Positions 1,041 through 23,496 of a stretch of 34,396 nucleotides of DNA are shown here, in pieces (the stretch's first letter is position 1; each line of letters starts with the position of its first letter). Source of the stretch: Desulfobacteraceae bacterium (lineage in GTDB: Bacteria > Desulfobacterota > Desulfobacteria > Desulfobacterales > Desulfosalsimonadaceae); NCBI GenBank assembly GCA_021737045.1, contig JAIPES010000019.1, positions 1-34,396 of the forward strand, read 5' to 3'. Made by a program: the position numbers and the translations under genes. The notes below the pieces were generated by a model. The model saw only the letters and a program-made list of their open reading frames with translations, was not told the DNA's origin and did no database searches.

Positions 1041-2306
1041 CTATCGTTTCACCGGCCGGCCGAATGCCTGGTTGATCAGATTGCGGTCTCTGGGCTGAAA
1101 CGTGCCGTTTGCCTTTTCCTTGCGGATGACCTTCTGGAAAAGCTCAAACATGCGCACCTGCTGGGGCTTGTCCGCGTAAAAGGTATCCCATGCGTAAAAC
1201 AGCAGTTCCTGCAGGCGTTCGGCGCTCATCTGCTTTGGATGATAGACCACCTTGTCTGCGGTGTAATCGTCCCAGTCATAGGAGAAAATTCGGTTTTCCC
1301 CGTGGAGCCGGTCCCAGGCCCGGGTGTGGGGAAACGGGGTGAGCACGGTAAATTCGGCCAGGTCCAGTTCGATTTCCAGCAAAAAGTCCACCAGCCGTTT
1401 GATAAAATCTTCGGTATGCCGGTCAAGGCCCAGCAAAATGGTTCCTTCCACGGCAATGCCGTGATCATGATAGCGCCGGATGCGCTCCCGGATGTAATCC
1501 GAGGTGTCAAACACCGCCTGATAAACAAACCAGGCCCCGGCCCGGGCGGCCAGGTCCAGGACTGCGGGGTCGTCTTCGATGGGATGGCTGCACCAGTTTT
1601 TTTTCAAAGGGATCATTTCGGCAAACAAGTCCTTTTCCCATTGAGTATCCTGGGCAAGGGAGTTGTCCACCAGAAACAGGCGGTTGTTGTCAATGCCGGC
1701 GATTTCCTCGATTGCCCGGTCAACGGGCCGCGGCCGGAACCGGCGGCCGCCCAGATAGGCAACCGCGCATGGATAGCAGTTAAACCGGCATCCCCTGGAG
1801 GCGTGCACCAGGTCCACCATCTGGATGCCCCGGTAATTGTACAGGCTCTTGTTTAAAATATCCCTGCGGGCCGGGCCCACGGTTTCAATGGCCGGGGGGG
1901 CTTCCAGGGCGTTGTAGAATTTCTGCAGCCGGTTGTTGCGGAAATCTTCAATGACCTGCTCCATTTTGCCTTCGGCCTCGCCCAGAAACACAGCATCGGC
2001 GTGCTGTGCGGTATCCTCGGCATGAAGGGTTGCGGCAATGCCGCCGAAAATTACACAAACCCCCTTTTTCCGGTAATGGTCCGCGATCTGCCATCCCCGT
2101 TTGACCTGGATGGTGAGCATCATGGAAATGCCCACCATGTCCACGGACTCATCAAAATCAATGTCCTGGAGGTTTTCATCCACGAAGGTGACTTCCACGT
2201 CTTCGGGAAGGCTTGCGGCAAATACCACCGGTCCGTGGGGGGGGAGGTGAAATTCGGTCTGGCGGGCCAGCTTGGCCCACCTGGGATAGATGAGTTTGAA
2301 TTTCAT
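1041..2306 (-). CDS. B12-binding-domain radical SAM protein (cluster enzyme 1)
   Basis: A 421-residue protein with an N-terminal cobalamin-binding-type Rossmann domain (about 1-150, including VGISMMLTIQ and the FGGIAATL strand-turn) and a radical SAM core. The 4Fe-4S motif is CRFNCYPC (CX3CX2C) in the segment HASRGCRFNCYPC. The C-terminal part (TPFPHTRAWDRL, then YHPKQMSAERLQE) is laid out as in HpnP/HpnJ-type enzymes. Members of this class carry out methylation or C-C bond chemistry on unactivated carbons, often in lipid pathways; the substrate here is unknown. The start was placed at the ATG 7 nt after the ACP gene, because the longer frame would run back through the whole ACP gene and its extra N-terminus resembles no domain. 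It is co-transcribed with the ACP, which suggests it acts on an ACP-bound or product chain. Confidence 0.85.
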   Translation of the reverse strand: MKFKLIYPRWAKLARQTEFHLPPHGPVVFAASLPEDVEVTFVDENLQDIDFDESVDMVGISMMLTIQVKRGWQIADHYRKKGVCVIFGGIAATLHAEDTAQHADAVFLGEAEGKMEQVIEDFRNNRLQKFYNALEAPPAIETVGPARRDILNKSLYNYRGIQMVDLVHASRGCRFNCYPCAVAYLGGRRFRPRPVDRAIEEIAGIDNNRLFLVDNSLAQDTQWEKDLFAEMIPLKKNWCSHPIEDDPAVLDLAARAGAWFVYQAVFDTSDYIRERIRRYHDHGIAVEGTILLGLDRHTEDFIKRLVDFLLEIELDLAEFTVLTPFPHTRAWDRLHGENRIFSYDWDDYTADKVVYHPKQMSAERLQELLFYAWDTFYADKPQQVRMFELFQKVIRKEKANGTFQPRDRNLINQAFGRPVKR

Positions 2307-2313
2307 GACTTGT

Positions 2314-2589
2314 TTATCCGGACATGTCTGCTGTCTGAGGCCGGTTGTCCCGGATGTACTCGGCCAGGGCGGCAACAGAGGCAAAGACTTTTTCCCCGAT
2401 CTCCTTGTTGTCAATGACAACGCCGTAGTCCTGTTCCACCATCATCACCAGCTCCAGGATGTCAATGGAATCAATGCCCAGATCTCCGCCCACCAGGGGG
2501 GCTTTTTCGTCGATTTCTTCGGGCGTGATATCCTCGAGATACAGTGTATCAATGATCTTTGTTTTGAGTTCGTCAATGAGCTGCTGCAT
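2314..2589 (-). CDS. Acyl carrier protein
   Basis: A 91-residue acidic helical carrier protein. The phosphopantetheine site is Ser41 in LGIDSIDILEL, the typical DSL/DSI motif. Residues 44-60 (ELVMMVEQDYGVVI) form the recognition helix that docks to ketosynthases. The length is slightly above a housekeeping ACP (about 78), with a polar C-terminal tail. It is the only carrier protein seen in the cluster and heads a two-gene minus unit with the radical SAM gene. It is most likely the dedicated carrier for the KS-CLF, ketoreductase and dehydratase encoded nearby. A phosphopantetheinyl transferase must come from elsewhere. Confidence 0.93.
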   Translation of the reverse strand: MQQLIDELKTKIIDTLYLEDITPEEIDEKAPLVGGDLGIDSIDILELVMMVEQDYGVVIDNKEIGEKVFASVAALAEYIRDNRPQTADMSG

Positions 2590-2618
2590 TGAAATGACCT
2601 TGTCAAACCAGTAAATTT

Positions 2619-2648
2619 ATTTTATGTTGAATAATCAGGCGAGTCTAA
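2619..2648 (-). promoter_or_regulatory. Possible promoter of the ACP-radical SAM unit
   Basis: On minus, TTAGAC (2648-2643) and TAAAAT (2624-2619) are separated by 18 nt, about 30 nt upstream of the ACP start. The -10 is good and the -35 weak. The interval 2590-2796 is the divergent control region between the ACP gene and the dehydratase gene; no clear plus-strand promoter was found in it. Confidence 0.3.
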
Positions 2649-2796
2649 AACATCACCTATTACCGTATTCTGAACTTCTCCGGAACTCTGAAATGACTGA
2701 AATTACCAGCCGTCCCCTGCAAAGTCAATCTTCTTTCCCATATGAATCATTTCTGCCCTGGCATCCATGCCCGGGCCGGGTCATTGGTGCCTGTTC

Positions 2797-3225
2797 ATGA
2801 GCCAGGATTTGTCCGATACCGAAGAATATTTGATCCAGCGCGATGCCATGAAGCTTGTGGACAGCATCGTGGCCGCAGACGCGCAAAAGGCAGTGGCCAG
2901 GTCCAAAATTTCCGCAGGGTGGCCCATACAAATGGACGGTTATGTTCATCCGGTGGTGTTAATTGAGCTGGTGGCCCAGACCTCCGGTATCCAGATCCGG
3001 TGGAGTGAGCTGGAAAAAGACACGGCGAGCCATTCCGGCGGCGGGTTTATCGTGGGCATCAAGGAGGCGGAATTCTTTTGTGCGCAAATCCCCCTGGATG
3101 CGGAGATTGAAACCTGCGCGGTCAAAGTCTCCAAGCACATGAATTACGCCGAGTTCGAGGGCACCTGCACCATGAACGGGCAAGCGCTGGGCCGGGCTTT
3201 TATTCAGGTGCTGCGGACCGGATAA
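2797..3225 (+). CDS. ApeP/FabZ-like hotdog 3-hydroxyacyl-ACP dehydratase
   Basis: A 142-residue hotdog-fold protein related to the 3-hydroxyacyl-ACP dehydratases of aryl-polyene clusters (COG4706-like). The signature PVVLIELVAQTSG (E57) corresponds to the FabZ helix with the catalytic Glu (VLxxEAxAQ). The FabZ His, 14 residues before that Glu, is Pro43 here. The alternative N-terminal LPHRxPM motif reads LIQRDAM, so its His is Gln14. His51 is the nearest candidate base. The start was set at the internal ATG beginning MSQDLSD; an ATG 30 nt upstream (2767) adds ten residues of no clear family match. It is first in the plus gene set (dehydratase, ketoreductase, LolA-like, lipoproteins) and would dehydrate 3-hydroxyacyl-ACP intermediates if active. 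Confidence 0.8.
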   Translation: MSQDLSDTEEYLIQRDAMKLVDSIVAADAQKAVARSKISAGWPIQMDGYVHPVVLIELVAQTSGIQIRWSELEKDTASHSGGGFIVGIKEAEFFCAQIPLDAEIETCAVKVSKHMNYAEFEGTCTMNGQALGRAFIQVLRTG

Positions 3226-3284
3226 AAGTTTTAAGTGTTAAGTGTTAAGTGTTAAGTAAAATCGGAAAGTTATTTTTTTGGTTG
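3226..3284 (+). repeat. Heptad repeat element, copy 1 (no hairpin)
   Basis: Directly after the dehydratase stop, TTAAGTG is repeated three times, followed by TTAAGTAAAATC and a T-rich block ending in GGTTG. The same sequence occurs at 20566-20652 (minus), 23497-23585 (plus) and 33428-33505 (minus). Those copies begin with a CCTGTAAAAA hairpin, which is missing here. Confidence 0.85.
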
Positions 3285-3313
3285 AAACGTTTGGGTTGGG
3301 AGAAGGCGGATAT

Positions 3314-4036
3314 ATGGATCAGCAAACAGCGATTGTAACCGGCGGCGGACGCGGTATCGGGCGGGCGATTGGCCTGGAACTGGCCGCCTGCGGCTATTTT
3401 GTGATCATCAATTACCGATCCGGCCGGGATGCGGCCGAGCAGACCCGGGATGAAATCCGCAGCGCCGGCGGGTCCGCGGAAATCATGGGTTTTGATATCA
3501 CGGATGCCGCTGCCGCCAAAGAGGCGGTGGCAGAGATTGCCGCCGGCCATGATATCGGTGTGCTGGTCAACAATGCCGGTATTACCGCAGACGGGCTGTT
3601 TGTGATGATGCCGGAAAAAGACTGGCACAACGTGATCAACACGGCCCTTTCAGGATTTTATAATGTCACAAAGCCGGTGTTAAAGCAGATGATGCGCAAA
3701 AAACGGGGATCCGTGGTGACCCTTTCCTCGGTCTCCGGCATCCGGGGCAACCGTGGGCAGGCCAATTACTCGGCTGCCAAGGCCGGCCTGATCGGGGCGA
3801 GCAAGGCGGTTTCAGCCGAAGTGGCGCGCCTGGGCATCCGGGTCAATGTTGTGGCCCCGGGCCTGATTGAAACCGAAATGATCCAGGAGGCGCCCGTGGA
3901 TTTCATCAAGCAGATGATTCCCATGGCCCGTATCGGCCGGCCCGAGGAAGTGGCAAAGGTGGTGCGGTTTTTGTGTTCAGAGGACGCTTCTTATATCACC
4001 GGTGCGGTGATCAGTGTGGACGGAGGCATGGGCTGA
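3314..4036 (+). CDS. fabG: 3-oxoacyl-ACP reductase (FabG/ApeQ-like SDR)
   Basis: A 240-residue short-chain dehydrogenase of normal FabG length. It has the NADPH-binding GGGRGIG motif (residues 10-16), NNAG at 86-89 and the catalytic S139, Y152 and K156 in LSSVSG...NYSAAK. The C-terminus (ITGAVISVDGGMG) is typical of FabG. It reduces 3-oxoacyl-ACP to 3-hydroxyacyl-ACP. The start is the ATG preceded by GAGAAGGCGG; a TTG 36 nt upstream is in frame but has no ribosome binding site and arises from the repeat. Its stop overlaps the next start (TGATG), so translation is coupled to the LolA-like gene. Neighbours show that it serves the dedicated cluster rather than housekeeping fatty acid synthesis. 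Confidence 0.95.
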   Translation: MDQQTAIVTGGGRGIGRAIGLELAACGYFVIINYRSGRDAAEQTRDEIRSAGGSAEIMGFDITDAAAAKEAVAEIAAGHDIGVLVNNAGITADGLFVMMPEKDWHNVINTALSGFYNVTKPVLKQMMRKKRGSVVTLSSVSGIRGNRGQANYSAAKAGLIGASKAVSAEVARLGIRVNVVAPGLIETEMIQEAPVDFIKQMIPMARIGRPEEVAKVVRFLCSEDASYITGAVISVDGGMG

Positions 4037-4671
4037 TGGCCGGCATTGCCTTCATGCGCAGGATTTTTTACAGGTTTGGTTTTTTTGCCGCGCTGCTGTG
4101 TGCTGTCCCGTTTTTTGCCGGCTGGGCCGACACCATGGAGGAGATCGGAGATCAGGCAGCCGGTATCCGGACGGTCAAAGCGCGGTTTGTCCAGGAAAAG
4201 CATTTGGAAATGCTGGACAACCCCCTTATATCCAAAGGCGAGCTGTATTTCCGGGCCCCGGATTCCCTGCGCTGGGAATACACCGATCCCGTAAAAAGCA
4301 TCCTGCTGATGAACCGCGACCGGATCAGCCAGTACGCCATGGGTGAAGACGGCATGCAGGCCCGGCAGGGCAGGGATCTGGAGGCCATGCGCGTTTTTCT
4401 GGAGCAGGTGGGCCAATGGATCCGCGGCGGGTTTGACAAAAACACTGCTTTTGCCGCAGAACTCAAAAAAGGGCAAAGGGTGGTGCTGACCCCTGTGGAC
4501 AAAAACATTTCCGCGGTGATTGAAAAAATTGAACTCCGGCTCACCGACACCCCGGGCGTGATCGCGTCTGCTTTTATTTATGAGGATGAAACCTCTTATA
4601 CCCGCATTGTGTTCCATGACACAAAGATCAACCCGAAGATTGAAGACAGCGTATTTGAGCACGCCGGATAG
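4036..4671 (+). CDS. LolA-like outer-membrane lipoprotein carrier protein
   Basis: A 211-residue exported protein with a signal peptide (about 1-32, cleavage near FAGWA). The LolA-type body contains IRTVKARFVQEKHLEMLDNP, then KGELYFRAPDSLRWEYTDP, the conserved early strands of the half-barrel. LolA homologues bind acyl chains and ferry lipid cargo across the periplasm. A specialised copy (ApeG-type) is a hallmark of aryl-polyene clusters, where it is thought to help deliver the polyene lipid to the outer membrane. The start was fixed by the TGATG overlap with the ketoreductase; a longer frame back into fabG adds no signal sequence. It probably works with the MMPL exporter and the two following lipoproteins. 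Confidence 0.87.
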   Translation: MAGIAFMRRIFYRFGFFAALLCAVPFFAGWADTMEEIGDQAAGIRTVKARFVQEKHLEMLDNPLISKGELYFRAPDSLRWEYTDPVKSILLMNRDRISQYAMGEDGMQARQGRDLEAMRVFLEQVGQWIRGGFDKNTAFAAELKKGQRVVLTPVDKNISAVIEKIELRLTDTPGVIASAFIYEDETSYTRIVFHDTKINPKIEDSVFEHAG

Positions 4672-5947: not shown

Positions 5948-6427
5948 TCAGATCCGGGTCTCGTTTGGGGCTTTGTCCTCGGTGTCTTCCAGAGAACGCT
6001 GAAAATCACGCCAGGCCCTGGAAAATCCCTTTTTGGTTTCCTCCCAGGCCTCTCCTGAACTGTTTTTGAATTTTTCCGCCCATTTTTGAAGGTCTTCGCG
6101 TTTCTGGCGCAGGGTTTCGAGGGTGGATTCGCTTTTTTCCTTCATCTCTTTGCTCATTTCTGATTTTTCCTTTTCATACCGGCGCTCCAGTTCATCGATG
6201 CGCTCGTCCATGCGCTGGATTTCTTCTTTTGCCCTTTTGGCCATTTCTTCCTGCTTGGCTGCAGAGTACTGCTTAAGGCTTTCAATGGCCTCGGCAATGT
6301 CCTGCCTGACTTTTTCGCCGGAAGTTTGATCGTTGGATTGAGCAACGGCCGGCCCGGCGCAGACCAGTGGGGCCAGCATCAAAATCAGGGCGGCAAACAT
6401 GCACTTGAGAGGGGTTTTCGGGTTCAT
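5948..6427 (-). CDS. Periplasmic coiled-coil protein
   Basis: A 159-residue exported protein. The signal peptide covers about 1-29 (cleavage after AVA). Almost all the rest (about 40-140) is a highly charged heptad coiled coil rich in E, K and R (AKQEEMAKRAKEEIQRMDER..., EKSEMSKEMKEKSE...), ending in two Trp-containing turns (EAWEETKKGFSRAWRDF). No enzymatic motif is present. It resembles small stress-type coiled-coil proteins but is not assigned to a family. It is the last gene of the long minus operon, and its ATG overlaps the deacetylase stop (ATGA), so it is translationally coupled. Confidence 0.75.
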   Translation of the reverse strand: MNPKTPLKCMFAALILMLAPLVCAGPAVAQSNDQTSGEKVRQDIAEAIESLKQYSAAKQEEMAKRAKEEIQRMDERIDELERRYEKEKSEMSKEMKEKSESTLETLRQKREDLQKWAEKFKNSSGEAWEETKKGFSRAWRDFQRSLEDTEDKAPNETRI

Positions 6428-7275
6428 GACAATGTCCTTTCATTTGTTTTGTCATTGCCGGCTTTTTCCGGCCGGATGGATTGGTGCATCACGGCATGGC
6501 CTGTGAGCCCGGAGACAGACCGGATCACAAGGCCTTGTTCAGAGAAAACAATAAGAATTTTCTCCATTTCCGCAAGCCATTGCCGCGGGTCAAACCGCGC
6601 GGTTCCCGGGTGGCCGTCATGGAGCAAAACGATGTCTCCGCTTTGCACCTTTCTGCTGATGCGCGCGGCCAGGCCGTTGATTTTCCGGTTTCCCACGTCC
6701 GGTCCCCGGCATGAGTAAAGAATACAGCGCATTTTGTATTTTTCAAGTACGGCCCTGAGCTTCGGGTTGACCACCCCGGCCGGGGGGCGGAAGGCGGCGG
6801 GCCGGATGTTGAAGCACGCCAGGATGTTTTGGGTTTTTGCGATTTCCGCGTCCAGTTTTCCGGCGGGCTTGAGCATGACAAACACGTCGTGGCTGTAGGT
6901 GTGATTGCCGATGCAGTGGCCTTCGGCAAGGATCTGTTGGATAATTTCCGGATGTTTTTCCGCCTTTTGGCCGGTGACGAAAAATGTGGCCGGCGCATTC
7001 CAGCGCCCAAGCAGCTCCAGCAGGGCCGGGGTGGTTTCCGGGTGAGGGCCGTCATCAAATGTAAGGGCAACGCTGTTGCTGTTTCTGGGGCCTTTGCAGA
7101 TAACGGGCAGAAAAAAACCGGACCGGCCCAAAACCGCTCCTGCCGCGCACATGATCACAAAGGCGGCAAGCACGGCCGCAGCAAAGTACGGGTGGATGAA
7201 AAAAACCGCCACGGCCGCGAAAAATGCGCCGGCTGCGGCAAGCCACGCAGGGGCTATGCCAAAGCCGGCCTTCAT
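6424..7275 (-). CDS. Membrane-anchored polysaccharide deacetylase (NodB domain, CE4)
   Basis: A 283-residue protein with two N-terminal membrane segments (about 9-27 and 31-55) followed by a NodB homology domain. Motif 1 is TFDDGPH (D74, D75), motif 2 is HTYSH (metal ligands H125, H129), motif 3 is RPPAG, and the LLHDGH motif follows. These supply the catalytic Asp, the metal site and the catalytic His of carbohydrate esterase family 4. It would de-N-acetylate a sugar on the outer face of the inner membrane; a glycosyltransferase in the same operon suggests a sugar on the lipid product. The start was chosen from the ATGA overlap with the upstream radical SAM gene. Confidence 0.9.
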   Translation of the reverse strand: MKAGFGIAPAWLAAAGAFFAAVAVFFIHPYFAAAVLAAFVIMCAAGAVLGRSGFFLPVICKGPRNSNSVALTFDDGPHPETTPALLELLGRWNAPATFFVTGQKAEKHPEIIQQILAEGHCIGNHTYSHDVFVMLKPAGKLDAEIAKTQNILACFNIRPAAFRPPAGVVNPKLRAVLEKYKMRCILYSCRGPDVGNRKINGLAARISRKVQSGDIVLLHDGHPGTARFDPRQWLAEMEKILIVFSEQGLVIRSVSGLTGHAVMHQSIRPEKAGNDKTNERTLS

Positions 7276-8630
7276 CTGACCAGATGCTCCCACAAGGGCC
7301 CGGTATGGCCACGGGCATGGAGCCGGGAGATGATCTGCGCGCTTTTGTCTCCGCCGCTGCCAACGATCCAGTTGATGCGGTTTTGGGCTTTTTCCAGCAC
7401 CCGGGCCTGTATCTGTTCGGCGCTGATGTGTGCGGGACTGTAAAATACGGGTTCAAGAAGATCTGCGTTTGTCTGGATCAGTCCCCGTTCCACGGCCATC
7501 TGCCGCACCCGGGTGCCCGGATAAATGCGGATGCCGGTGAAAAAAAAGCAGGCGGTTTTCTCCAGGGCTGCGGCATTGTCCAGTGTTGTTTCCAGGGTTT
7601 TTTCAGATTCGTCCGGCGCGCCCAGCAGAAAAAAATGGGCTGCATGGATTCCCGCATCCAGGGCGGCCTGGTGGGCGGCGAAGATATCTGCGCAGGTAAA
7701 GGGTTTACGGTACTGGGACAGGATGGAATCGCAGAACGCGTCTGTGCCGAATTCCGCATGGGTCATGCCGGCTTTTGCAAGGGCGGCAAAATAGCCTGCC
7801 GGCATCCGGGCCGGGGCGATGTAGGCGCCCCAGTCAACGGTGATTTGTGCGCGTTCAAAGGCCCGGGCCACGGCCAGGCTGTGATCCGGGTCTGCATTAA
7901 AGGCCGAATCCGTGATAAACAAAAACGCGGCTCCGGCATCCTGGAGCTGCCGGGCCTGCCTGGCCACTTCCGCGGGGTCAAACAGCCGCATGCGCCTGCC
8001 CTCGATGTCGGGGTAAGTGCAGTAGATGCACTGAAAACAGCACCCCCGCTTGGTCTGCAGGTTGAGCATCCCGCCGTGGCGAAGATAATAATCCACGTGC
8101 GGACGATCGGCCAGAAACGAGCGCTTTGTTAAGTTACCCAGGGGCGTCGGCGGTGTGAGGGCTTCGGCCGGGCTGTTTGGGGTGATTACCCCGGGCAGAT
8201 CGGTTACGGGTTTGTTTTGGGAAAGCCGGTCCAGAAACGCGGCCAGGCGCTCGCCTTCGCCGGTCAGGGCGTAATCCGCCCCCAGGTGCGTCAAAATGGC
8301 CCGGGGAAACATGTTCAGCCCGCTGCCGCCGATAATGACCGGCGCACGGCTGATTTTTCGGATTCGGTCCACAAGTTCCCGGCTCTGCCAGAGATAGGTG
8401 CCCGGGTTGACCGCATCAGTGGTGTCCACGTTGCGGATGGAAATGCCGATGATATCCGGATCGGTCCGGGCCACCCGGGCCAGAACGGTTTCAGCGCCGC
8501 CGGGTTCATTGATGTCTGCGATCCACACCTGATGGCGGTCCTTGATGGCCCCGGCCACGCAGTCCAGCCCCAGGGGGTAGACCGGGTAGGGTCGGGTTTC
8601 GGTGTTGGGCGAGATCAGCAAAACCTTCAT
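7272..8630 (-). CDS. B12-binding-domain radical SAM protein (cluster enzyme 2)
   Basis: A 452-residue protein. The N-terminal cobalamin-binding-type domain (about 1-150) has PLGLDCVAGAIK and VIIGGSGLNMFP. The radical SAM core carries CCFQCIYC (CX3CX2C) after NLQTKRG, and the C-terminal part ends in a helical region. It is distinct from the first radical SAM enzyme: its spacing and flanks match the general B12-radical SAM class with a GGSG strand. No DxHxxG cobalamin-His motif is evident, so B12 may bind base-off without a protein His, or not at all. The start overlaps the KS-CLF stop (ATGA); 41 upstream residues in the longer frame lie inside that gene and are not used. Substrate unknown. Confidence 0.87.
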   Translation of the reverse strand: MKVLLISPNTETRPYPVYPLGLDCVAGAIKDRHQVWIADINEPGGAETVLARVARTDPDIIGISIRNVDTTDAVNPGTYLWQSRELVDRIRKISRAPVIIGGSGLNMFPRAILTHLGADYALTGEGERLAAFLDRLSQNKPVTDLPGVITPNSPAEALTPPTPLGNLTKRSFLADRPHVDYYLRHGGMLNLQTKRGCCFQCIYCTYPDIEGRRMRLFDPAEVARQARQLQDAGAAFLFITDSAFNADPDHSLAVARAFERAQITVDWGAYIAPARMPAGYFAALAKAGMTHAEFGTDAFCDSILSQYRKPFTCADIFAAHQAALDAGIHAAHFFLLGAPDESEKTLETTLDNAAALEKTACFFFTGIRIYPGTRVRQMAVERGLIQTNADLLEPVFYSPAHISAEQIQARVLEKAQNRINWIVGSGGDKSAQIISRLHARGHTGPLWEHLVR

Positions 8631-10801
8631 GTGTGCATCATCTCCACTGCTGTAACGGGTTTTCCGGCATTGATCATTAAAATTCCCCTGGCGCGCAGAT
8701 CGATTTCCGTGTCTCCGGCCGGGCCGGCCGGGAGAAATCCTTTTTCCATGCACCCGGCAGCCAGGCCTGCGGCCGCGGCAGAGGCCGTGGCAAATTCGCC
8801 GGTATATTTCCGGTAATCCACCATTGGCAGGTTTGTGTCAAGGGCCTGGCAAAAGGCGTTGATCACCCGGCGGGAAAAATCCGCACGGGCTGCGGGAATG
8901 CCGGCAAAGATGACACCGATTCTTGCTGAAACGGCTCTGGCCCCGCCCAGTTTTTCCACCAGGGCGCTGGCGGTTTTGGCCGGATCATCGCTGCCAAGGA
9001 CAAATACAGGACCAATGCCGATGCCGGTGTTGGCGGAGGTGAGCATCAGTCCGCCCCCGCCGTCGGCCGGAGTGGCGGCCAGGGCGGCTGACGGATCAAA
9101 CCTGCGGATCAGGGGTTCATGGGCCTCGTCTGCGCCCATGACCAGGCATGGGCCATGGTTGTTTCCCATGAGCCGGGCTGCGATCAGGGCCTGTTCAAAG
9201 GCGTCGTCCTGTCCCGTGAGTGTCATGTTTGCACCCCTGGCCCCGAGCATGAGTGCGGCCTGGCCGGCAGGGGCGTTGTGTACGGATCCGGCAAAATCCA
9301 TGGGGCTGGAAAGCCGCTCCTGGTTGGCAAACAGCCGGGTGAGAAAATTATGGGTCTCTGTGAGCGCTCCCCAGCCGGTGCCGAAAAACAGGTCCGAAAT
9401 CTGATTGTCCATATTTGTGCGGGATATCGCCTGGCCGGCCAGGTTTATCGCCATTCTGGAAAGCCGCTTTAACCGCCGGACGGCTTTTGTATCCAGGTCA
9501 GCAGACAGATCTGCATTGGACAATATCCCGGCGCAGGAAAGATTGCTGTAAAACGCCTGCAGACTGGCTTCTGTGTCCCCTGCGCCGGTGATGCACATGC
9601 CGGTTAAAACGCCTGTGACATCGGGATGTTTTGTGCAATGACCGTGCTTTCCGGCTTTGCCCGGGATTTTGTTTTGGATGCCGCCAATGACCAGGGCGGC
9701 ATTGTTGCCCCCGAACCCGAAGGAATTGGACAGCACGGTGCTGATTTTTCCGTGCTGCGGCCGGGTCAGGGGGTGGATGTCCAGATCCGGGTCAGGGGTT
9801 CGCATGCCCGCGTTTGCGGGCAAAAAGCCGTCTGCCGCTGCCCGGGCGCAGATGCCCGCTTCCATGGCCCCGGCTGCTGCAAGGCTGTGGCCGAAAGCGC
9901 CCTTGACAGAGGAGAGCGCCGGGGGGTTGTCTCCGAATACCGCATGCACGGCCCGGGCTTCGGCCGCGTCATTGCCGATGGTGCCGGTGCCGTGCAAATT
10001 GATGTAGTCGATGTCTGCAGGGCCCATCCCGGCATCTTTTAAGGCGGCTTCCATGGCCCGGGCCGCGCCCAGGCCTTCCGGATGCGGGGAAGTGGCGTGA
10101 TGAGCGTCACAGGAAAGACCGGCGCCCAGAATTTGGGCAACTGCATTTTTTGGGGGCGTTTGACCGCCTTTGAGCAGAACCAGGGCCGCGGCCTCGGAAA
10201 GGTGCATGCCCTTTCTGTTTGCGTCAAAGGGCCGGGCGCCCTCCGGGTCGATTAATTGCAGGGCGGCAAACCCGTGGCAGGTCAGTCGGCACAGGGCATC
10301 AGCTCCCCCGGCCAGCACAGTTTGGGCCATGCCGCAGCCAATCATCCGGGCGGCCAGGGCAATGGCCGCAGCCCCGGAGGAGCAGGCAGTGGAGACCGTC
10401 AAAACCGGGCCGGTGCATCCGCAGACCCCGGCCGCATGCCGGGCCACCGTGTCCAGACCGTGGCCTGCATAGGCCCGGGGGTCTGTGACCTTGTTTTTGA
10501 TCAGCACTTCGGATTCCGGCATTCCGCCGGTGGTCACGCCCATGACCACTGCGTCGGGCACAGTACCCGGACATTGGCTCATGATCTGTCTGACCGCTGC
10601 ATCTGTGAGCGCATGGGTCCGGCCGGCACCAATGGCGGGCAAATCCATGCTCACCTGGCCGGCCACTGGCGGATCCGGATGGGCAAACAGGGTCAGGGGG
10701 GCGGCACAAATCCGGTTTTCCTCCAGTGCGGCCATGGTCTGCCGGGTGTCTCCCATGGGCGTGATCATTGCAATGCCGGTGATGTAAATGCCTGTCAACA
10801 T
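8627..10801 (-). CDS. Ketosynthase-chain length factor fusion (KS-CLF)
   Basis: A 724-residue protein made of two ketosynthase-fold halves. Residues 1-380 are an active FabF-type ketosynthase with nucleophile Cys140 (TACSSG), His270 (NLHGTGT), Lys300 and His305 (KGAFGHS), and the C-terminal GFGGNN loop. Residues 395-724 are a second thiolase-fold half with SVHNAPAG (506-513) where the Cys motif would be. That is the signature of the Ketoacyl-synt_2 chain-length-factor family, so this half is catalytically dead and structural. In aryl-polyene and type II PKS systems KS and CLF are separate, heterodimerising proteins; here they form one chain. The enzyme would condense malonyl-ACP iteratively. 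It lies 9 nt after the acyltransferase gene. Confidence 0.93.
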   Translation of the reverse strand: MLTGIYITGIAMITPMGDTRQTMAALEENRICAAPLTLFAHPDPPVAGQVSMDLPAIGAGRTHALTDAAVRQIMSQCPGTVPDAVVMGVTTGGMPESEVLIKNKVTDPRAYAGHGLDTVARHAAGVCGCTGPVLTVSTACSSGAAAIALAARMIGCGMAQTVLAGGADALCRLTCHGFAALQLIDPEGARPFDANRKGMHLSEAAALVLLKGGQTPPKNAVAQILGAGLSCDAHHATSPHPEGLGAARAMEAALKDAGMGPADIDYINLHGTGTIGNDAAEARAVHAVFGDNPPALSSVKGAFGHSLAAAGAMEAGICARAAADGFLPANAGMRTPDPDLDIHPLTRPQHGKISTVLSNSFGFGGNNAALVIGGIQNKIPGKAGKHGHCTKHPDVTGVLTGMCITGAGDTEASLQAFYSNLSCAGILSNADLSADLDTKAVRRLKRLSRMAINLAGQAISRTNMDNQISDLFFGTGWGALTETHNFLTRLFANQERLSSPMDFAGSVHNAPAGQAALMLGARGANMTLTGQDDAFEQALIAARLMGNNHGPCLVMGADEAHEPLIRRFDPSAALAATPADGGGGLMLTSANTGIGIGPVFVLGSDDPAKTASALVEKLGGARAVSARIGVIFAGIPAARADFSRRVINAFCQALDTNLPMVDYRKYTGEFATASAAAAGLAAGCMEKGFLPAGPAGDTEIDLRARGILMINAGKPVTAVEMMHT

Positions 10802-10810: not shown

Positions 10811-11671
10811 TTAGGGTTCAAAATGATGCCACTGGCAGGGATGTGCCAGCACCGCCTGCTCCAGCAGGCGGGTGTATTGCCGTGCGGCATCCGCGATCTG
10901 CCGGTCGCGGCCCGGGCCTTTTTTCCGGGCCGGCGAAATGGGCGGGTGGATGATAAAGCTGTAATGATGCGCGCCTGTGCGAAAGGCAAAAAACACGTAA
11001 ATCGGTGTTCTGGTGGCTGCGGCCAAAGCAAAGGGCGCCCTGGGCAGCCGCACCGGCCGGTTGAAAAACGTGGTTTCCACATATGCCTGGTTTGCGTCCC
11101 GGAACCGGTCGCCGGCCATGGACAGAATCCAGCCCTTTCGCAGATATGCCATGGCCTCGATGATTTCCATGGGCGAGCCCTGGCGGTTTTGGCCTGCAAT
11201 CACCCTTACCCCGCTTTTTCGCAGGCTTTGTTTCTGTGTGCCCTCGATCTGTTCGTTCTGTTTTTCCCCCATGACCAGAAGCAGGGGCACGCCCTGTTCT
11301 TTTAGCAGCCGGGCGGCCACCTCCCAGTTGCCCACATGGCTCATGAGCAAAATCCCGCCGGTGCCGGCTGTTATGCAGGCCTTTAGATGCTCCAGGCCGC
11401 TGGCGGTGTAGGTGATGCGGTTTTTATGTTCCAGCAGGTAGCGGTCCACGTAAAGATGGGTAAAGCTGTGAAATTGCCGCCACGCACACCAGATATGATA
11501 CCATGCCGGCCGGCCGGGAAAAAGGATTCTGTAAAAACGAACGCTCACGGCCACCCGGGGCGGAAAAAACAGAAAATAGCCGGCTGCAATGGTGCGCACG
11601 GCTGCATAAAAGACCCAAATCCCGTATTTTTCAGAGCAATATGCCAGAATTTGGTAAAACAGGCGGATCAT
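10811..11671 (-). CDS. LpxL/HtrB-like lysophospholipid or lipid A acyltransferase family protein
   Basis: A 286-residue protein with an N-terminal membrane-associated part and the acyltransferase catalytic motif HX4E (H112...E117 in MSHVGNWE), then a GDRF segment and a basic motif (FNRPVRLPRAPFALA) typical of the lipid A acyltransferase family. Members transfer an acyl chain from acyl-ACP to a lipid or sugar acceptor at the inner membrane. In aryl-polyene clusters such enzymes are proposed to attach the polyene to its lipid or glycan anchor. Its start overlaps the MMPL-methyltransferase stop (ATGA). Acceptor and donor are unknown; the donor is plausibly the cluster ACP. Confidence 0.88.
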   Translation of the reverse strand: MIRLFYQILAYCSEKYGIWVFYAAVRTIAAGYFLFFPPRVAVSVRFYRILFPGRPAWYHIWCAWRQFHSFTHLYVDRYLLEHKNRITYTASGLEHLKACITAGTGGILLMSHVGNWEVAARLLKEQGVPLLLVMGEKQNEQIEGTQKQSLRKSGVRVIAGQNRQGSPMEIIEAMAYLRKGWILSMAGDRFRDANQAYVETTFFNRPVRLPRAPFALAAATRTPIYVFFAFRTGAHHYSFIIHPPISPARKKGPGRDRQIADAARQYTRLLEQAVLAHPCQWHHFEP

Positions 11672-14600
11672 CGGGTTTCACCATAACTTTGGGGTTTTCT
11701 GGCAGCAAACCATTTTTCCTCCCGCCCCCGGCCCGAGTCCTGCACATGGCGAATTTCAAAGCCCGTAGATGTCAACAGATCCCGGATTTGGGCCTCGGTT
11801 CGGTCATGGCGCGCAATTCCCCGGATTTTTAAGCGCAGGATTTCAACCCGCCGCAGAAATGAATCTTTTGAATCTCTGAGCACGGCCGCGCGCATGATCA
11901 ACCGGCCGCCCGGCTCCAGGCGGTTTTTTGCAGCGGCCAGGGTTTGGGCGGCGGTATTGTCTGAAAGGTAATGGAGCATGTCGATCATCAGGGCGGTGTC
12001 TGCGGGATGGTCCGGTGCCGGCAGGTCCGGGGCTGCAGCCTGCCATATGGTTCCCTGATCAGCCGTGATGCGGCTGGCAAACCGCACCCGTTCGCCGTCC
12101 GGGTCCATGCCGGTTATCCGGATTTTTGGGTCCATGGCCAGCAGCCACCCGGCGGTGATGCCGTAGCCGCATCCGATGTCCAGAACCGCGGCCGGCCTGT
12201 CCAGAAACCCGGGCAGCTCGGCAAACATGGGATCCACCCGGCGCTTGATTGCAGCAAAAATCCGGGGATAGGCCTCGGTGTGCCGGTACATGCGGGCAAG
12301 GCGCTGTTTGTGTTCTGCAGAGCCTGGCGCTGCCACACCCTGGCCCGGGACCGCGGGCTGAAACAGGATATCCAGAATGGCCGGCAGCAGGCAGAAGGTA
12401 CCGGCGGCCACAAACAGCACCGCAGGGGCCAGAATCAGGCCCAGGCTTTTCATGAGCAGGTGTTCTCCTGTGGCCAGGGCGGCAAACCCGATAAAGGTGG
12501 AGGCCGCAGCCAGAAACACGGTCATGCGGATGTGGGCGAAATGCGGATGGGCCGGCGTGCCGTAGCGCTGGTAGGCCCGGACGAAATAAAGGGAATAATC
12601 CAGGCCCATGCCGAAAACCACCACAGAGAGCATCAGCCCGGGAATGTTTAGCGGCTGGCCCAGCAGGTGCAGGAGGCCCAGGGTGCAGACCATGGCAAAG
12701 CCCAGGGGCAGAAGCGAGACCGCCGCCAGGGTGAAATCGGCAAAAAACACCACCAGCAGCACGGCCACGCCCGCAGCCACAATGGCAAACATTTGCACAA
12801 AGGTATTTGAAAGCAGCGTGCCCAGGTTTTGGGCGTAATAATTGGGGTCCAGCACGGAGATTTCCGGCCGGCCCGATGAAATCGTGTCAAAAAACCGGGC
12901 CGGATCATAATTTTCTCCTGGCACAAGAGAGGCAAACAGGATGTGGCCGTCTCCGGTCTTTTCGGAATGAATGCCCAGAAAATCAAAAAAACGTTCATCA
13001 AAGCGCATCTGCCCGGAGGCGCAGTCAGTGGTTTGGCTTGAATACACGTGTGCAAAATTTTCCGGGTTTATCCCCAGGGCCGCGGCCTGATCCATGATGC
13101 GGGAAACCACTTGCTTTTGTCCGGCATCCTGCCAGAACTGCTGCCATGCGTTCATATTGGAGCGGCAGCGCTTTGGACCGGGAAACAGCATGGAGGGGAA
13201 AAACGCCTCTGAAATGCGGTTTTCAGCCATTTGGTCTTCGATTTCGGCGGCAAGCCGGTCGCTTGTCTGCTGGAGCTTTTTTTTGTTTTCCGCCCGGGCC
13301 ATGACATGGACCCGGTCAAACATCCGGTTTCCCCAGGTGTCTGCGATCTGCTGTTCTGCGGCAAGGGTGTTTTTGCTAACGGTATTGATGGCGGAAATAT
13401 CTGCGCAGAAATCCGGCCGGGCAAAAAAGGCCAGAATACCGGCTGCCAGAAGGGCGGCAACCAGCTTGGGCTTTTTGCCGGACAGCACCGCATGGTCTAC
13501 TGCGGTTTGCAGCAGCAGCCGGTGCTTGCGCCGGGCCCCTTTAAGCCCGGGCATCAGCAGGGGAAAACCTGTATGCACGAACAAAAAGGAAAACAAAATG
13601 CCCAAAGCGGCAAACTGCCCGATTTCCGCGAGTATGGGAAACCCGCTGAAAACCAGCAGAAAAAAGGCGCCCGCCGAGGTCAGCGCAGCTGCAAGGGCCA
13701 CTGCCCACACTTCCCTGGAGGCCTGTTTGCCGGTTGTTTCATAAGGCCGGTCTGCAAACAGCAGATAGGAAATGCCGTGATCAACCGTAATGGCCACGAT
13801 GGCCCCGCCAAATCCCACGGCCATGATGGTGATGGATTCGTGGAACAGGGCGTATACCACCAGGGCGGCCAGGGTGCCGAACACTGCGGGCACAAAGGCC
13901 AAAAGCCCGATTGCTGGCCTGGGAAAGGCCAGCATGAGCAGCGCGGCAATGCCCAGGGCCGAAAGAAACACCGCCTGTCTGGCGTCGTTTTTGGCTGCGG
14001 TTTCATTGTCGATCACCGCCCGGTAGGCGCCGGCCGCGGTCAGTGTCAGGTCCGCGCCCCGGGTGTCAAAATCCCGGGAAAGCGCCTGCCGGGCCTGGCT
14101 GATGGCCGCGGCGATTTCTCTGGCGGCTTCTGATCCGGTGGCTGCCCGGCCGGGATCGGCAATAATTAAGACATGGCCCAGGTCTTTGGAAAACAGCCGG
14201 CCCTTGTGAAATTCGATGTTTTCTGCCGGCATCAGGGCCCGGGTTTTTTCCAGGACCACATCGCGCAGGCCCGCGGGATCAGCAACAATGGCCCGGGCCC
14301 GGCCGGTGCTTTCCATGGTGTAGAGCCGGGACAGGTTTTGCCTGACCCGTTTTTCCAGCACCCCTTTTTCCAGCAAAGGGGTCACTTTTTTTTCCAGATC
14401 CCGTGCCGTGAGCAGGGCCGGCAGGTGTTGTGCTGCATAAAGATCCAGGTCGGAAAAAATCTGCCCGGCGTCTTTGAAACCCACGGCGTCAAAAAGCCCG
14501 GTGGCTTCCATATGCGCTTCCAGCCGTCCTGCGGCCGCAGAAAGAACCTCCGGGTCTGCGGGTTCAAGTCCCAGATCGATCAATACCCGGTTTTGATAGG

Positions 14601-14787
14601 GGTGGTTTAAAATGACTTCATGGCTGTCGGCCATGACCGGATTGCCAGCGGGCAGGGAATGCAAAATGTTGGTTTCAATGCGGAGGCCTGAGGCAGAAAA
14701 GGCGAAAACTGCCATTGCTCCGGCAATCACGGTAAAAAGGATGCCGCGTGCCAGCATGGATTTTTTTGTAATCCTGGTTTGTGTCAA
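11668..14787 (-). CDS. MMPL/RND-family exporter fused to a class I SAM methyltransferase
   Basis: A 1039-residue protein. Residues 1-800 are an RND/MMPL transporter: one N-terminal helix (about 13-33), a large periplasmic loop, a helix bundle (about 270-425), then a second helix and loop, and a second bundle (about 655-800). Intramembrane acidic pairs are D336-H337 (TVDHGISY) and D730-Y731 (GLDYSLYF), as expected of proton-driven MMPL pumps. Residues about 830-1030 are a soluble methyltransferase with SAM motif I DIGCGYG (870-876), then GMDPD and LMIDMLHYL. In related clusters exporter and methyltransferase are separate genes. The fusion places methylation at the cytoplasmic face of the exporter. 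Start overlaps the glycosyltransferase stop (ATGA). Confidence 0.92.
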   Translation of the reverse strand: MTQTRITKKSMLARGILFTVIAGAMAVFAFSASGLRIETNILHSLPAGNPVMADSHEVILNHPYQNRVLIDLGLEPADPEVLSAAAGRLEAHMEATGLFDAVGFKDAGQIFSDLDLYAAQHLPALLTARDLEKKVTPLLEKGVLEKRVRQNLSRLYTMESTGRARAIVADPAGLRDVVLEKTRALMPAENIEFHKGRLFSKDLGHVLIIADPGRAATGSEAAREIAAAISQARQALSRDFDTRGADLTLTAAGAYRAVIDNETAAKNDARQAVFLSALGIAALLMLAFPRPAIGLLAFVPAVFGTLAALVVYALFHESITIMAVGFGGAIVAITVDHGISYLLFADRPYETTGKQASREVWAVALAAALTSAGAFFLLVFSGFPILAEIGQFAALGILFSFLFVHTGFPLLMPGLKGARRKHRLLLQTAVDHAVLSGKKPKLVAALLAAGILAFFARPDFCADISAINTVSKNTLAAEQQIADTWGNRMFDRVHVMARAENKKKLQQTSDRLAAEIEDQMAENRISEAFFPSMLFPGPKRCRSNMNAWQQFWQDAGQKQVVSRIMDQAAALGINPENFAHVYSSQTTDCASGQMRFDERFFDFLGIHSEKTGDGHILFASLVPGENYDPARFFDTISSGRPEISVLDPNYYAQNLGTLLSNTFVQMFAIVAAGVAVLLVVFFADFTLAAVSLLPLGFAMVCTLGLLHLLGQPLNIPGLMLSVVVFGMGLDYSLYFVRAYQRYGTPAHPHFAHIRMTVFLAAASTFIGFAALATGEHLLMKSLGLILAPAVLFVAAGTFCLLPAILDILFQPAVPGQGVAAPGSAEHKQRLARMYRHTEAYPRIFAAIKRRVDPMFAELPGFLDRPAAVLDIGCGYGITAGWLLAMDPKIRITGMDPDGERVRFASRITADQGTIWQAAAPDLPAPDHPADTALMIDMLHYLSDNTAAQTLAAAKNRLEPGGRLIMRAAVLRDSKDSFLRRVEILRLKIRGIARHDRTEAQIRDLLTSTGFEIRHVQDSGRGREEKWFAARKPQSYGETR

Positions 14788-15584
14788 TGGCTGCCACTCC
14801 TTGCTGATCTTCTTAGAAAACCAACAAACCGCTGTCCCAAAAGCCGGGTGAAAATCCCTGCATTGCGAAGAAAATCCACGCCGGGGCGGAAATGGGAGAT
14901 GCGCTGGTCAGCCGGCAGGTAATGGACGTTTACCGGCACTTCAATTACGGAAACACCCTGACGGCAGGCCCGCACCAGGATTTCCACCTCAAAGTCAAAC
15001 CGGGTGCACATCGCCCCCCAGTGCAGGGCCGCGGGCAGGGGATAGGCCCGGAATCCGCTCTGGGAATCGGACAGTTTGGGCCCGCCGCACACCCAGACCC
15101 AGAAGTTGGAAAACCGGCGGCCCATCCGGGAGCCGTATCGGATATGGGATTGTTCCATTCCCGTGCGGCAGCCCACGATCAGGGCGCGGCCGGAATCGGT
15201 CGCCGCAGCCATCAGGGCCGGAGCGTCTGCCGGGTCATGCTGGCCGTCAGCGTCTATGGTCACGGCATAGTCGGCCAGTTGCGCCGCCTCTGTCAGGCCG
15301 GTTTGAAGGGCCGCGCCCTTGCCGGTGTTGCGGGCATGGGTGATCACGCGGATATCTGAAAGCCGCCCGAGCCGGGCGGCGGTGTCATCTGTTGATCCGT
15401 CGTTTATCACGATAATGTCTGTACCAAGCCCTTTGGCCCGGGATATGACCGCTTCCAGGGCCGCACCGTGATTGTAGACCGGAATCACGATGACAAACCG
15501 GCACTTTTGCGGCCGTTTTTGCGCCGGGCCGGATTTGGGGCCGGATTTAGGATTCATGGACATGCAGGGGTTCTTGGGGGTCAT
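14784..15584 (-). CDS. Family 2 glycosyltransferase (DPM1/polyprenyl-phosphate type)
   Basis: A 266-residue GT-A enzyme with IPVYNHG at the N-terminus, NDGSTDD (D62), the metal-binding DADGQHD (D111, D113), SDSQSGFRAYP and RFDFEVEIL. This matches the dolichol-phosphate-mannose-synthase-like branch of GT2, which usually moves a sugar from a nucleotide donor to a lipid acceptor. The first 26 residues are Lys/Pro-rich and may be trimmed, since in-frame ATG codons at 15563 and 15557 are alternative starts; all overlap the DAK2-DegV gene by 11-38 nt. The C-terminal RLLGQRFVGFLRR is basic and likely membrane-facing. A sugar on the lipid product fits the downstream deacetylase. Confidence 0.9.
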   Translation of the reverse strand: MTPKNPCMSMNPKSGPKSGPAQKRPQKCRFVIVIPVYNHGAALEAVISRAKGLGTDIIVINDGSTDDTAARLGRLSDIRVITHARNTGKGAALQTGLTEAAQLADYAVTIDADGQHDPADAPALMAAATDSGRALIVGCRTGMEQSHIRYGSRMGRRFSNFWVWVCGGPKLSDSQSGFRAYPLPAALHWGAMCTRFDFEVEILVRACRQGVSVIEVPVNVHYLPADQRISHFRPGVDFLRNAGIFTRLLGQRFVGFLRRSARSGSH

Positions 15585-17313
15585 GTTTTCGCGGATTGTC
15601 GCAGCACCAGGCCACGGCCCAGGCGCCCGGACCGATGTGGACCCCGGAGGTCATGGACATGGGCTGGAGCAGGATTTCTGCTTCAGGAAAAAGCCCGGCG
15701 ATGCGTTCTTTGACCGGGCCGGCCACCCATTGCCGGTTATCGGAATATTCCAGCAGCAAAAGGGGATGGGGGGCGTGGTTTAAGTCCTGCTGCAGTTGTT
15801 GTTCGGCAAATTTGATCTGGGCTTCGGCGTTTCGCACGATGCCGACTTTTTCCGCCCCATGGGAAAGGGGGCTGATCACCGGTTTCATGTGGAGCATGTC
15901 GCCGAAAAAGGCCCCGGTTTTCGACATCCGGCCCCCTGCGGCCAGGTATTTGAGCTCGTCGAGAAATATGTATTCCCCGCAGCGCTCAACAATGTTTCGG
16001 GCAAATGCGATCACCTGGTTTGCGCTTTGAACGCCGGCTGCATACCGGGCCGTGGCCGCGGCTATGGCCGCCAGGCGGCCCGAGGCCGCGCCGGTGTCAA
16101 TGACAAAAAACCGGTCATCCATGTCGTTTGCCGCCTTCCAGTCCATGGCCGTCTGGTAATTGCCGGTGTAGATCGAGCCCACGCACAGGTAAAGCACCCG
16201 GTCGTGCTGGGACAAAAGCCGGGCGTAATGCTGATGGCGTTCAAAATCCGAGGCCTGGGAGGTTGAGGCGCGCACGGCCCGGCGCATGGCCTGGTAAAGT
16301 TCCTCCGGGTCCATGCATGTTTCCGGGATGCAGCGGTCGCCCACGGTGACATAGCTTTCCAGCAGGGTGATGCCCAGCCGGCCGGCCAGGTGCCGGGATA
16401 TTGAGCCGGCCGCATCCGTGACAAGGTGCACCGGCGCAGCGGCGGCCGGCAGCCGGAAGGCGGCGGCCTGCTCGGCCATGTTGTCTTCGTTCCAGGAAAC
16501 AATGCGGCCCATCTGCCCGAGTTGTTTTCGCGCAGCAGAGCGGTCTGCGGTGTGCAGGTGAATTTTGGCGTACCCGCCGGTGTGAAAAACCGTCAGACTG
16601 TCGTGGTCTTGTGCGGCTGCCGGGTCCTGTGTACCGGAGTTCTCGTTTACCTCCACCACTGCATCCACGCAGAATCCGTTTTCCGCGGCTGCGGCATACT
16701 CCGGATCAATTTTGAGCCGGCCGGCAAAGATTTCGTGGATGGGGAGAAAGGGGCGGTCTTGTCCGCAAAAATCTGTAAAAAAGCCCTCCAGAAACACGAA
16801 CATGCCAAGGGCCCCGGCATCCACCACCTTGGCGGCGCTCAGTTCCCGGATCTGGCCGGTGCTGCTGTCAACTTCGGTCTGCATGGCATCTGTGACGGTT
16901 TTCAGGCCGCTTTGCGGGTTTTTAGGGTCGGGCAGGGCGGCTATGGCTTCGGCAAAAGCATCAATAACGGTGAGCATGGTGCCGGCCCGGGGTCTGGAAA
17001 TTGCACTGCGGGCATTCTGTGCCCCGGTTTGGGCGCACTGGTAAAGGGCTTTTAATCCGTTTGCGGCCAGAAGATCATTGACAAAACGGGCTGCGATGTT
17101 TCCGGAATTGCCCCTTGCGGCAAACAGAATCTGGTGCCCGGTTTTCTCCGGGCCCTGGTCTGAAACGTTTCTGAGCGGGGCCAGGGTGATCATGAGGTTT
17201 CGGCCCGTATCCCCGTCTGCCACGGGAAACACGTTGATCCGGTCAAGTACCGCCGACCATGCGGCCAGCCGCTCATAGCCGGTTAAAAGGGCCTGGTGAA
17301 AGTCTGCTGCCAT
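15547..17313 (-). CDS. DAK2-DegV fusion: FakA-like kinase joined to FakB-like fatty-acid-binding domain
   Basis: A 588-residue protein. Residues 1-205 are a DhaL/DAK2 nucleotide-binding domain with DGDTG (33-37) and RGNSG (67-71), the ATP/Mg motifs of fatty-acid kinase FakA. Residues about 210-285 match the FakA middle domain, including a Cys in GFCVDAVVEV and a His-x-His in YAKIHLHT, which in FakA bind zinc. Residues about 292-588 are a DegV/FakB domain with VTDAAGSIS, TSQASDF near 349 (FakB-type carboxylate site) and GGRMSKTGAFFGDML near 459. FakA and FakB are normally separate; together they phosphorylate free fatty acids to acyl-phosphate. The start follows the thioesterase stop by 1 nt (TAA-C-ATG); an ATG at 17334 adds seven residues. 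Confidence 0.87.
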   Translation of the reverse strand: MAADFHQALLTGYERLAAWSAVLDRINVFPVADGDTGRNLMITLAPLRNVSDQGPEKTGHQILFAARGNSGNIAARFVNDLLAANGLKALYQCAQTGAQNARSAISRPRAGTMLTVIDAFAEAIAALPDPKNPQSGLKTVTDAMQTEVDSSTGQIRELSAAKVVDAGALGMFVFLEGFFTDFCGQDRPFLPIHEIFAGRLKIDPEYAAAAENGFCVDAVVEVNENSGTQDPAAAQDHDSLTVFHTGGYAKIHLHTADRSAARKQLGQMGRIVSWNEDNMAEQAAAFRLPAAAAPVHLVTDAAGSISRHLAGRLGITLLESYVTVGDRCIPETCMDPEELYQAMRRAVRASTSQASDFERHQHYARLLSQHDRVLYLCVGSIYTGNYQTAMDWKAANDMDDRFFVIDTGAASGRLAAIAAATARYAAGVQSANQVIAFARNIVERCGEYIFLDELKYLAAGGRMSKTGAFFGDMLHMKPVISPLSHGAEKVGIVRNAEAQIKFAEQQLQQDLNHAPHPLLLLEYSDNRQWVAGPVKERIAGLFPEAEILLQPMSMTSGVHIGPGAWAVAWCCDNPRKHDPQEPLHVHES

Positions 17314-17314
17314 G

Positions 17315-17740
17315 TTATTCAAATCCGAGTGCATGCCGGATGGTATCCGGAATTTTAAAAAGGGTCTCCATCTCCGGGATTTTTACGGCCGCCTGCTGGC
17401 TTTTGCCTTTGGCAATAACCCGGCTGTCTTGTGTGAGGCGGATGATAAAATCCACGCCGATTTTGTAGTCCACTGCCGTGAGTTTGGCCCGGCAGACAAA
17501 CTCGTCGCGGAAGCGCAGGGGAAACACGTGCTTGATGCTGGTGCGGATGATGGGGAAAATGTGTTGGGTATCCGTGTAGACCCGGTAGAGGTCCACGCCC
17601 ATTTTCCGGAACAGGGCGTCGCGGGTGATGTCAAAGTATTTGAAGTAATTTCCGTGCCATACCACTTCCATGGGGTCCAGGTCATGGAAGGGGACCGTGA
17701 ATTTCACTTCACAGATTCTGTCGGTGTCTTCAGTTTTCAT
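17315..17740 (-). CDS. Acyl-CoA/acyl-ACP thioesterase (4HBT hotdog, YbgC-like)
   Basis: A 141-residue hotdog thioesterase. The N-terminal active-site signature HDLDPMEVVWHGNYFKYFD carries the catalytic Asp22 and the H-x-N turn of the 4-hydroxybenzoyl-CoA thioesterase/YbgC family; the rest (VFPLRFRDEF, LTAVDYKIG) fits the beta-sheet core. The length is normal. It is the first gene of the long minus operon, 75 nt from a predicted transcription start. It would release a free acid from a CoA or ACP thioester. Next to the DAK2-DegV fusion this suggests a release-then-phosphorylate route, but that is inference. Confidence 0.9.
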   Translation of the reverse strand: MKTEDTDRICEVKFTVPFHDLDPMEVVWHGNYFKYFDITRDALFRKMGVDLYRVYTDTQHIFPIIRTSIKHVFPLRFRDEFVCRAKLTAVDYKIGVDFIIRLTQDSRVIAKGKSQQAAVKIPEMETLFKIPDTIRHALGFE

Positions 17741-18145: not shown

Positions 18146-18220
18146 GCCAGCGCACTGGAAATATTCGGCAACAACTGGTCTTTACCAAGAGGTCTTTTGA
18201 ATTTGGACACCTAAAGGGTT

Positions 18221-18345: not shown

Positions 18346-18440
18346 TGAAAATCGACTTTTTACGAGTGCGTCAAGGGTTGATCAACTCAAAAGGGGCTTT
18401 TCAATGTGTTTTACAGAATTATCGAATTTGAGCATGGTCC

Positions 18441-23493: not shown

Positions 23494-23496
23494 TGA

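Follow-up and report, generated by a model that had tools for sequence, protein, structure and literature searches.

A 34,396-nucleotide contig from a Desulfobacteraceae bacterium (JAIPES010000019.1, positions 1 to 34,396, analysed whole and referred to here as the window) carries a gene that encodes a ketosynthase (KS) and a chain length factor (CLF) in one polypeptide. The gene is a single open frame of 724 codons at 8627-10801 on the minus strand, and its product is a genuine, conserved KS-CLF in one chain, of the type II, aryl polyene (APE)-like kind, situated in a cluster with ladderane-type radical S-adenosylmethionine (SAM) enzymes. In our reading, to which we give a probability of about 0.8, the chain folds as the usual pseudo-twofold KS/CLF dimer and most likely carries out iterative polyenoyl extension with the enzymes of its cluster. 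An earlier interpretation made from the letters of the window (the sequence-only reading) had described the uninterrupted 724-residue frame correctly, leaving its strand unstated, and had proposed a domain search, a survey of fused and split genes, and a structure prediction of the monomer.

The two halves of the fused protein

Three segments make up the gene.
9677-10801, minus strand: KS half (residues 1-375), an ApeO-type ketosynthase (Pfam PF00109/PF02801; PRK09185; ApeO phmmer).
9614-9676, minus strand: linker between the halves (residues 376-396), with variable sequence and length (pLDDT, dN/dS, alignment).
8630-9613, minus strand: CLF half (residues 397-724), a degenerate thiolase fold with RRLKR at 442-446 and SVHN at 506-509 (Pfam, alignments, fold match).

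The domain search found both halves. The first is a complete ketosynthase that matches Pfam ketoacyl-synt and Ketoacyl-synt_C; its best NCBIfam subfamily is PRK09185, at 308 bits and below the cut-off of 407. When E. coli ApeO was searched with phmmer against the window and C92, a second contig of the assembly, the KS half was the best match (173 bits). The Cys-His-His set and Lys of an active KS (C140, H270, H305 and K300) are invariant in 16 orthologues and unchanged in all of 81 aligned sequences where the position is present, confirming the intact KS half of the sequence-only reading.

The second half matches Ketoacyl-synt_2 (1e-13), a domain detected in 16 of 16 orthologous CLF halves, and weakly matches the CLF-like chains 6kxd_B, 9s5h_C, 6qsp_B (ApeC) and 7f28_A. 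With ApeC as the query, the fused protein was the sole match in the window and C92 (6e-5). Catalytic positions were paired by half-against-half profile-profile comparison, by hidden Markov model alignment to FabF structures, and by a multiple alignment that for the CLF half included E. coli FabF, ApeO, ApeC and standalone CLFs. Asp532 lies opposite C140 (D in 74 and N in 7 of the 81 sequences), Gly634 opposite H270 and Arg664 opposite K300 (each 81/81), and Glu669 opposite H305 (E 64, Q 15, D 2 of 81). Because none of the four catalytic residues is kept, the CLF half is predicted to be catalytically dead, and a second active KS is ruled out. The protein thus holds an active KS and a KS-fold partner without catalytic residues, as the KS-CLF function class does, in one 724-aa frame and not as two separate subunits. 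The sequence-only reading was right that this half is degenerate but not that SVHNAPAG replaces the nucleophile motif: the profile and multiple alignments rule this out, placing Asp532 at the nucleophile position and SVHN 20-odd residues upstream, opposite FabF STIVNMVAG. SVHN is a signature common to ApeC and standalone CLFs, and the arginine pair of RRLKR, which is invariant, falls opposite an RR in ApeC.

Nei-Gojobori ratios of nonsynonymous to synonymous substitution (dN/dS), taken from four pairs, were 0.17-0.25 in the KS and CLF halves alike; in the linker they were about 0.8-1.3 in three pairs and 0.34 in the fourth. Purifying selection acts on both halves and not on the linker, which is 15-24 residues long in nearly all of the 81 sequences.

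An AlphaFold2 model built on the 16-sequence alignment had a mean predicted local distance difference test score (pLDDT) of 85 and a predicted TM score (pTM) of 0.92; the pLDDT dropped under 50 in just two stretches, the linker (380-392) and residues 36-39. The top Foldseek match was 6RIW, the KS-CLF didomain of PfaC, likewise a single chain (TM 0.81 by query length, alignment of 891 columns). Since the 6RIW superposition covers both halves, we predict that its two halves pair within the chain as KS and CLF, which supports the pseudo-heterodimer that the sequence-only reading had envisaged; the fixed 1:1 pairing that it also proposed is likely, given the solved PfaC arrangement seen in the model. 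Taken alone, the KS half matched the ishigamide KS 6kxd_A (Z 56.7, root-mean-square deviation 1.7, 372 aligned), and the CLF half matched the ishigamide CLF 6kxd_B and the actinorhodin CLF 1tqy_B amid many FabFs. These best or near-best structural matches of the single halves (6kxd, 1tqy) differ from our protein in being separate subunits, of actinobacterial type II polyketide synthases. The VIA-align list consists of single KS chains only, the KS half filling it, and the absence of 6RIW there is uninformative.

Distribution, origin and known counterparts

The full-length single-frame protein is present in 15 other genomes among 60 relatives, at 45-89% identity. A scan of named genomes, some of them shared with the 60-relative set, gave 195 related loci; among the best 80 of these, every locus with its upstream end on the contig was fused. 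Fused loci span Desulfobacterota, Syntrophales and Spirochaetota and include a cultured isolate, Desulfobacter vibrioformis DSM 8776, and the single frame is repeated in more than 70 loci from separate assemblies. Although the window is one of the 148 contigs of a fragmented metagenome-assembled genome, an assembly or frameshift artefact merging two genes is extremely improbable, because independent assemblies, the cultured isolate and the 15 relatives' genomes all show a single frame and selection acts on both halves; the many independent genomes rule out assembly error. Neither such an artefact nor an active second KS, the two outcomes that the sequence-only reading had named as refuting it, was found. 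A long frame at another locus (L162), considered as a further fusion, was rejected as chance, the coding start falling inside the frame.

A CLF profile run against 395 Desulfobacterota genomes gave 20 full-length matches, every one in a frame of at least 720 aa. After these the E-value jumps from 1e-88 to 1e-24, where partial matches begin, nearly all of them separate frames of 280-540 aa. The same profile gave 11 full-length matches in 247 Spirochaetota genomes, all 11 fused. Thus the fused form was found in 20/395 and 11/247 genomes, none of the 31 full-length matches in these two sampled phyla is split, and the join therefore appears to be stably kept.

In trees, the KS halves group together next to ApeO and split KSs, with support of 82/94 that is not decisive, and the CLF halves form one group with support of 99/100; both lie close to APE-type KS-CLFs. 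Standalone CLF genes of other Desulfobacterota lie directly 3' of KS genes and often overlap them, making loss of the stop codon between adjacent KS and CLF genes a likely route to the fusion. Other Desulfobacterota carry a second type of fused protein, about 800 aa long (L159:1897-4302, L160:2551-4944, L161:2251-4599). Like the 724-aa protein it has a KS followed by a degenerate KS in one frame, but it differs in KS placement, in having SVTN in place of SVHN (its motifs are ATVCSSS and SVTNAP), and in a Glu at the CLF nucleophile position. Its KS halves fall outside the main clade. A joint KS clade of both types was rejected (approximately unbiased test, p-AU 6e-5), and two separate fusions, besides that of PfaC, are therefore likely; in the CLF tree a joint origin was not rejected (p 0.065).

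A KS and CLF in one chain is already known from PfaC, PfaBC and HglC (PMC3098273), and one-chain KS-CLFs have been proposed to be intramolecular dimers (PMC13311796). In PfaC, as here, the KS precedes the CLF, and our model superposes on it over both halves. However, the CLF of PfaC is followed by two dehydratase domains and is part of a multidomain synthase (PMC3098273), whereas the 724-aa protein ends after the CLF and has separate acyl carrier protein (ACP), ketoreductase and dehydratase proteins alongside. Its neighbours are type II proteins and not a PfaABCDE context. PfaC orthology is ruled out by this domain layout, and we keep PfaC as a structural precedent. The sequence-only premise that KS and CLF are separate subunits consequently fails in general, PfaC and related didomains being fused, and holds for the APE systems compared. 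The type II, APE-like one-chain form is the new variant; we found no description of a fused type II KS-CLF in the open-access literature.

The closest APE match of both halves is ApeO-ApeC, which shares with the fused protein common cluster genes, SVHN and the paired arginines of the CLF. ApeO-ApeC is a heterodimer in which ApeC is half-size, with one thiolase domain retained; ApeC Arg30/31 is proposed to contact the ACP, and the pair alone yields a full-length polyene in vitro (PMC8358021). In contrast to the fusion, these are two proteins, and the E. coli ApeC gene lies far from ApeO within its cluster.

Whether the fusion is functionally neutral, the result of stop-codon loss with a role identical to that of separate ApeO-ApeC-like pairs, is in our view an even call. 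The adjacent, often overlapping split genes of other Desulfobacterota are consistent with it, as are the second fused type, with its KS halves outside the main clade, and 29 genomes (counted by hand) that have a standalone CLF-like match and, within 13 kb, a gene of TIGR04072, the family of the radical SAM gene next to our fusion. The lack of split forms among the 31 full-length matches argues against neutrality. The sequence-only proposal of a new subclass of iterative polyene synthases is plausible but not supported: other genomes have unfused KS and CLF genes in the vicinity of this radical-SAM family, so fusion alone need not mean new chemistry.

The gene cluster and its possible product

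Homologues of the window and C92 are contiguous in relatives: one genome (G008) has all the window homologues and most C92 homologues on a single stretch of about 30 kb, and the arrangement is comparable in G015, G043 and G049. This gene order indicates that the window is half of one cluster of about 30 kb, the other part of which lies on C92, split off by the assembly. The other cluster genes in the window are as follows.
1041-2420, minus strand: second B12-binding radical SAM protein (Pfam B12-binding just above cut-off, Radical_SAM below).
2314-2589, minus strand: ApeE-like ACP (Pfam PP-binding; PRK09184 68.7 bits, cut-off 70; ApeE 8e-20).
2767-3225, plus strand: FabZ-like/ApeP-like dehydratase (NCBIfam FabZ 1e-4, weak; ApeP 2e-5; syntenic in relatives).
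3278-4036, plus strand: FabG/FlxB/ApeQ-like ketoreductase (NCBIfam FlxB 304 bits, cut-off 340; ApeQ 5e-59).
3973-4671, plus strand: LolA-like carrier, ApeL-like (Pfam LolA; ApeL 4e-6).
6424-7293, minus strand: polysaccharide deacetylase-family protein (Pfam PF01522; syntenic in G008 and G015).
7272-8630, minus strand: B12-binding radical SAM protein (TIGR04072, 'rSAM_ladder_B12', 401 bits, cut-off 360).
10811-11671, minus strand: LpxL/HtrB-type acyltransferase (Pfam PF03279; E. coli ApeJ match).
11668-14787, minus strand: ApeM-like MMPL exporter with a C-terminal methyltransferase (Pfam; ApeM 3e-14).
14784-15584, minus strand: family 2 glycosyltransferase, ApeJ-like (Pfam; ApeJ 2e-32).
15547-17334, minus strand: FakA-DegV(FakB) fusion, fatty acid kinase-like (Pfam Dak2, FakA-like_M, DegV).
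17315-17740, minus strand: 4HBT thioesterase, ApeK-like (Pfam; ApeK 1e-21).

The KS-CLF stop overlaps the start of the TIGR04072 gene (ATGA, 8627-8630). In 63 of 80 loci, and in 42 of the 48 long ones, the fused gene has a homologue of that gene nearby, and by hand reading this homologue lies within 200 bp in 14 of 20 Desulfobacterota carriers. Among the long loci, 46/48 have an ACP nearby and 29/48 a homologue of the second radical SAM gene.

Using the ape genes of E. coli CFT073 as the only APE reference, with the adjoining island excluded, we found homologues of the APE gene set in the window and C92: ApeC, D, E, F, H, I, J, K, L, M, O, P, Q and R, of which ApeC, F, I, L and P matched weakly. 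In place of a separate half-size CLF there is the fused CLF of about 330 aa. The cluster also has, as ladderane-type clusters do, a B12 radical SAM protein above the TIGR04072 cut-off; no phytoene-desaturase-like oxidoreductase was found among the proteins scanned, which covered C92 in part only.

These genes suggest how the protein may work. The KS half would hold the growing chain on Cys140 and decarboxylate malonyl-ACP with His270 and His305, while the CLF half would line the partner side of the chain tunnel and might offer its arginine-rich patch (RRLKR) to the ACP, as ApeC presumably does for ApeO. Together with the cluster ACP, ketoreductase and dehydratase, the KS-CLF would most likely build a polyenoyl chain by repeated extension of a starter; the radical-SAM/B12 enzymes could then modify this chain. 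The acyltransferase, glycosyltransferase, MMPL exporter and LolA-like carrier may attach the product to the envelope or move it there.

Several observations weigh against polyenoyl extension by an APE-like KS/CLF dimer. Unlike the smaller ApeC, the CLF half retains a second thiolase-like part, and the model comes from 16 sequences, with five versions spanning pLDDT 85 to 48. E. coli ApeG had no match at E 1e-3 in the window and C92, so the starter may not be aromatic. Four more active-looking KSs and a FabI-like reductase are encoded on C92; elongation may therefore be shared and the product more reduced.

It is also possible, at somewhat less than even odds, that the cluster is of a ladderane or anaerobic polyunsaturated fatty acid type, comparable with those of Kuenenia and Desulfotalea, and that the fused enzyme builds a polyunsaturated acyl chain destined for lipids or hydrocarbons and not for an APE pigment. 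The TIGR04072 gene directly downstream of the fused gene and the additional radical SAM genes are in keeping with this, as is the published Kuenenia cluster, which has a B12 radical SAM protein (Kuste2803), a FabF (Kuste2804) and a catalytically odd FabB (Kuste2805) (PMC2649909, PMC4790861). Rattray et al. (2009) reported that clusters of Kuenenia and Desulfotalea combine radical SAM genes with unusual paralogues of FabB/F, and that D. psychrophila contains C31:8/C31:9 hydrocarbons (PMC2649909). However, no ladderanes were detected in D. psychrophila, most APE genes have homologues here, and the likeness to Kuenenia and Desulfotalea comes from published description and not from sequence. Compared in that way only, kuste2803-2805 resembles our cluster in combining a B12 radical SAM gene with genes for a FabF and for a non-canonical FabB, but its KS and CLF-like proteins are encoded by separate genes, unlike the 724-aa fusion. 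Lys 328 and Glu 333 of Kuste2805, as published, are also present in the CLF-like chain 9s5h_C. 'Ladderane' clusters have been reported across Desulfobacterota and other phyla with no link to ladderane lipids (PMC9902471).

We further speculate, again at somewhat less than even odds, that the protein represents a distinct monophyletic one-chain KS-CLF family, translation-coupled to a B12 radical SAM enzyme, that drives an undescribed anaerobic polyene-lipid pathway across Desulfobacterota and Spirochaetota, in which the chain building and export of APE clusters are combined with radical chemistry of the ladderane type. The cluster joins two questions, namely what 'ladderane' clusters produce in bacteria in which ladderanes are not known, and which polyenes strict anaerobes make for the envelope; Desulfobacter vibrioformis is a cultured carrier in which both could be addressed. 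A natural one-chain type II KS-CLF would also be a useful tool, since its stoichiometry is fixed: expression might be simpler than with heterodimers, and CLF mutants could be tested without subunit exchange.

Other features of the window and C92

Two neighbouring cluster proteins are themselves composite. In the exporter, the C-terminal methyltransferase domain occupies residues about 850-1020, and one polypeptide joins the A subunit of fatty acid kinase (Dak2, FakA-like) to the B subunit (DegV). Near the cluster, DAHP synthase and prephenate dehydratase with an ACT domain form one 634-aa protein (21589-23493, plus strand), which could feed an aromatic starter. On C92, a tandem radical SAM pair (L116:1153-2280 and 2219-3307) precedes a tandem KS pair; homologues of the radical SAM pair lie near the fused gene in 34/48 long loci, and the two are candidate Kuste3342/3343 orthologues. 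Interspersed repeats of about 50-240 bp, mostly intergenic, occur at 17950-18700, 20377-20659, 23490-23611, 31518-31736 and 33428-33511. They are 82-100% identical to several places in C92, some have inverted self-matches, and they resemble small elements of a mobile or palindromic kind.

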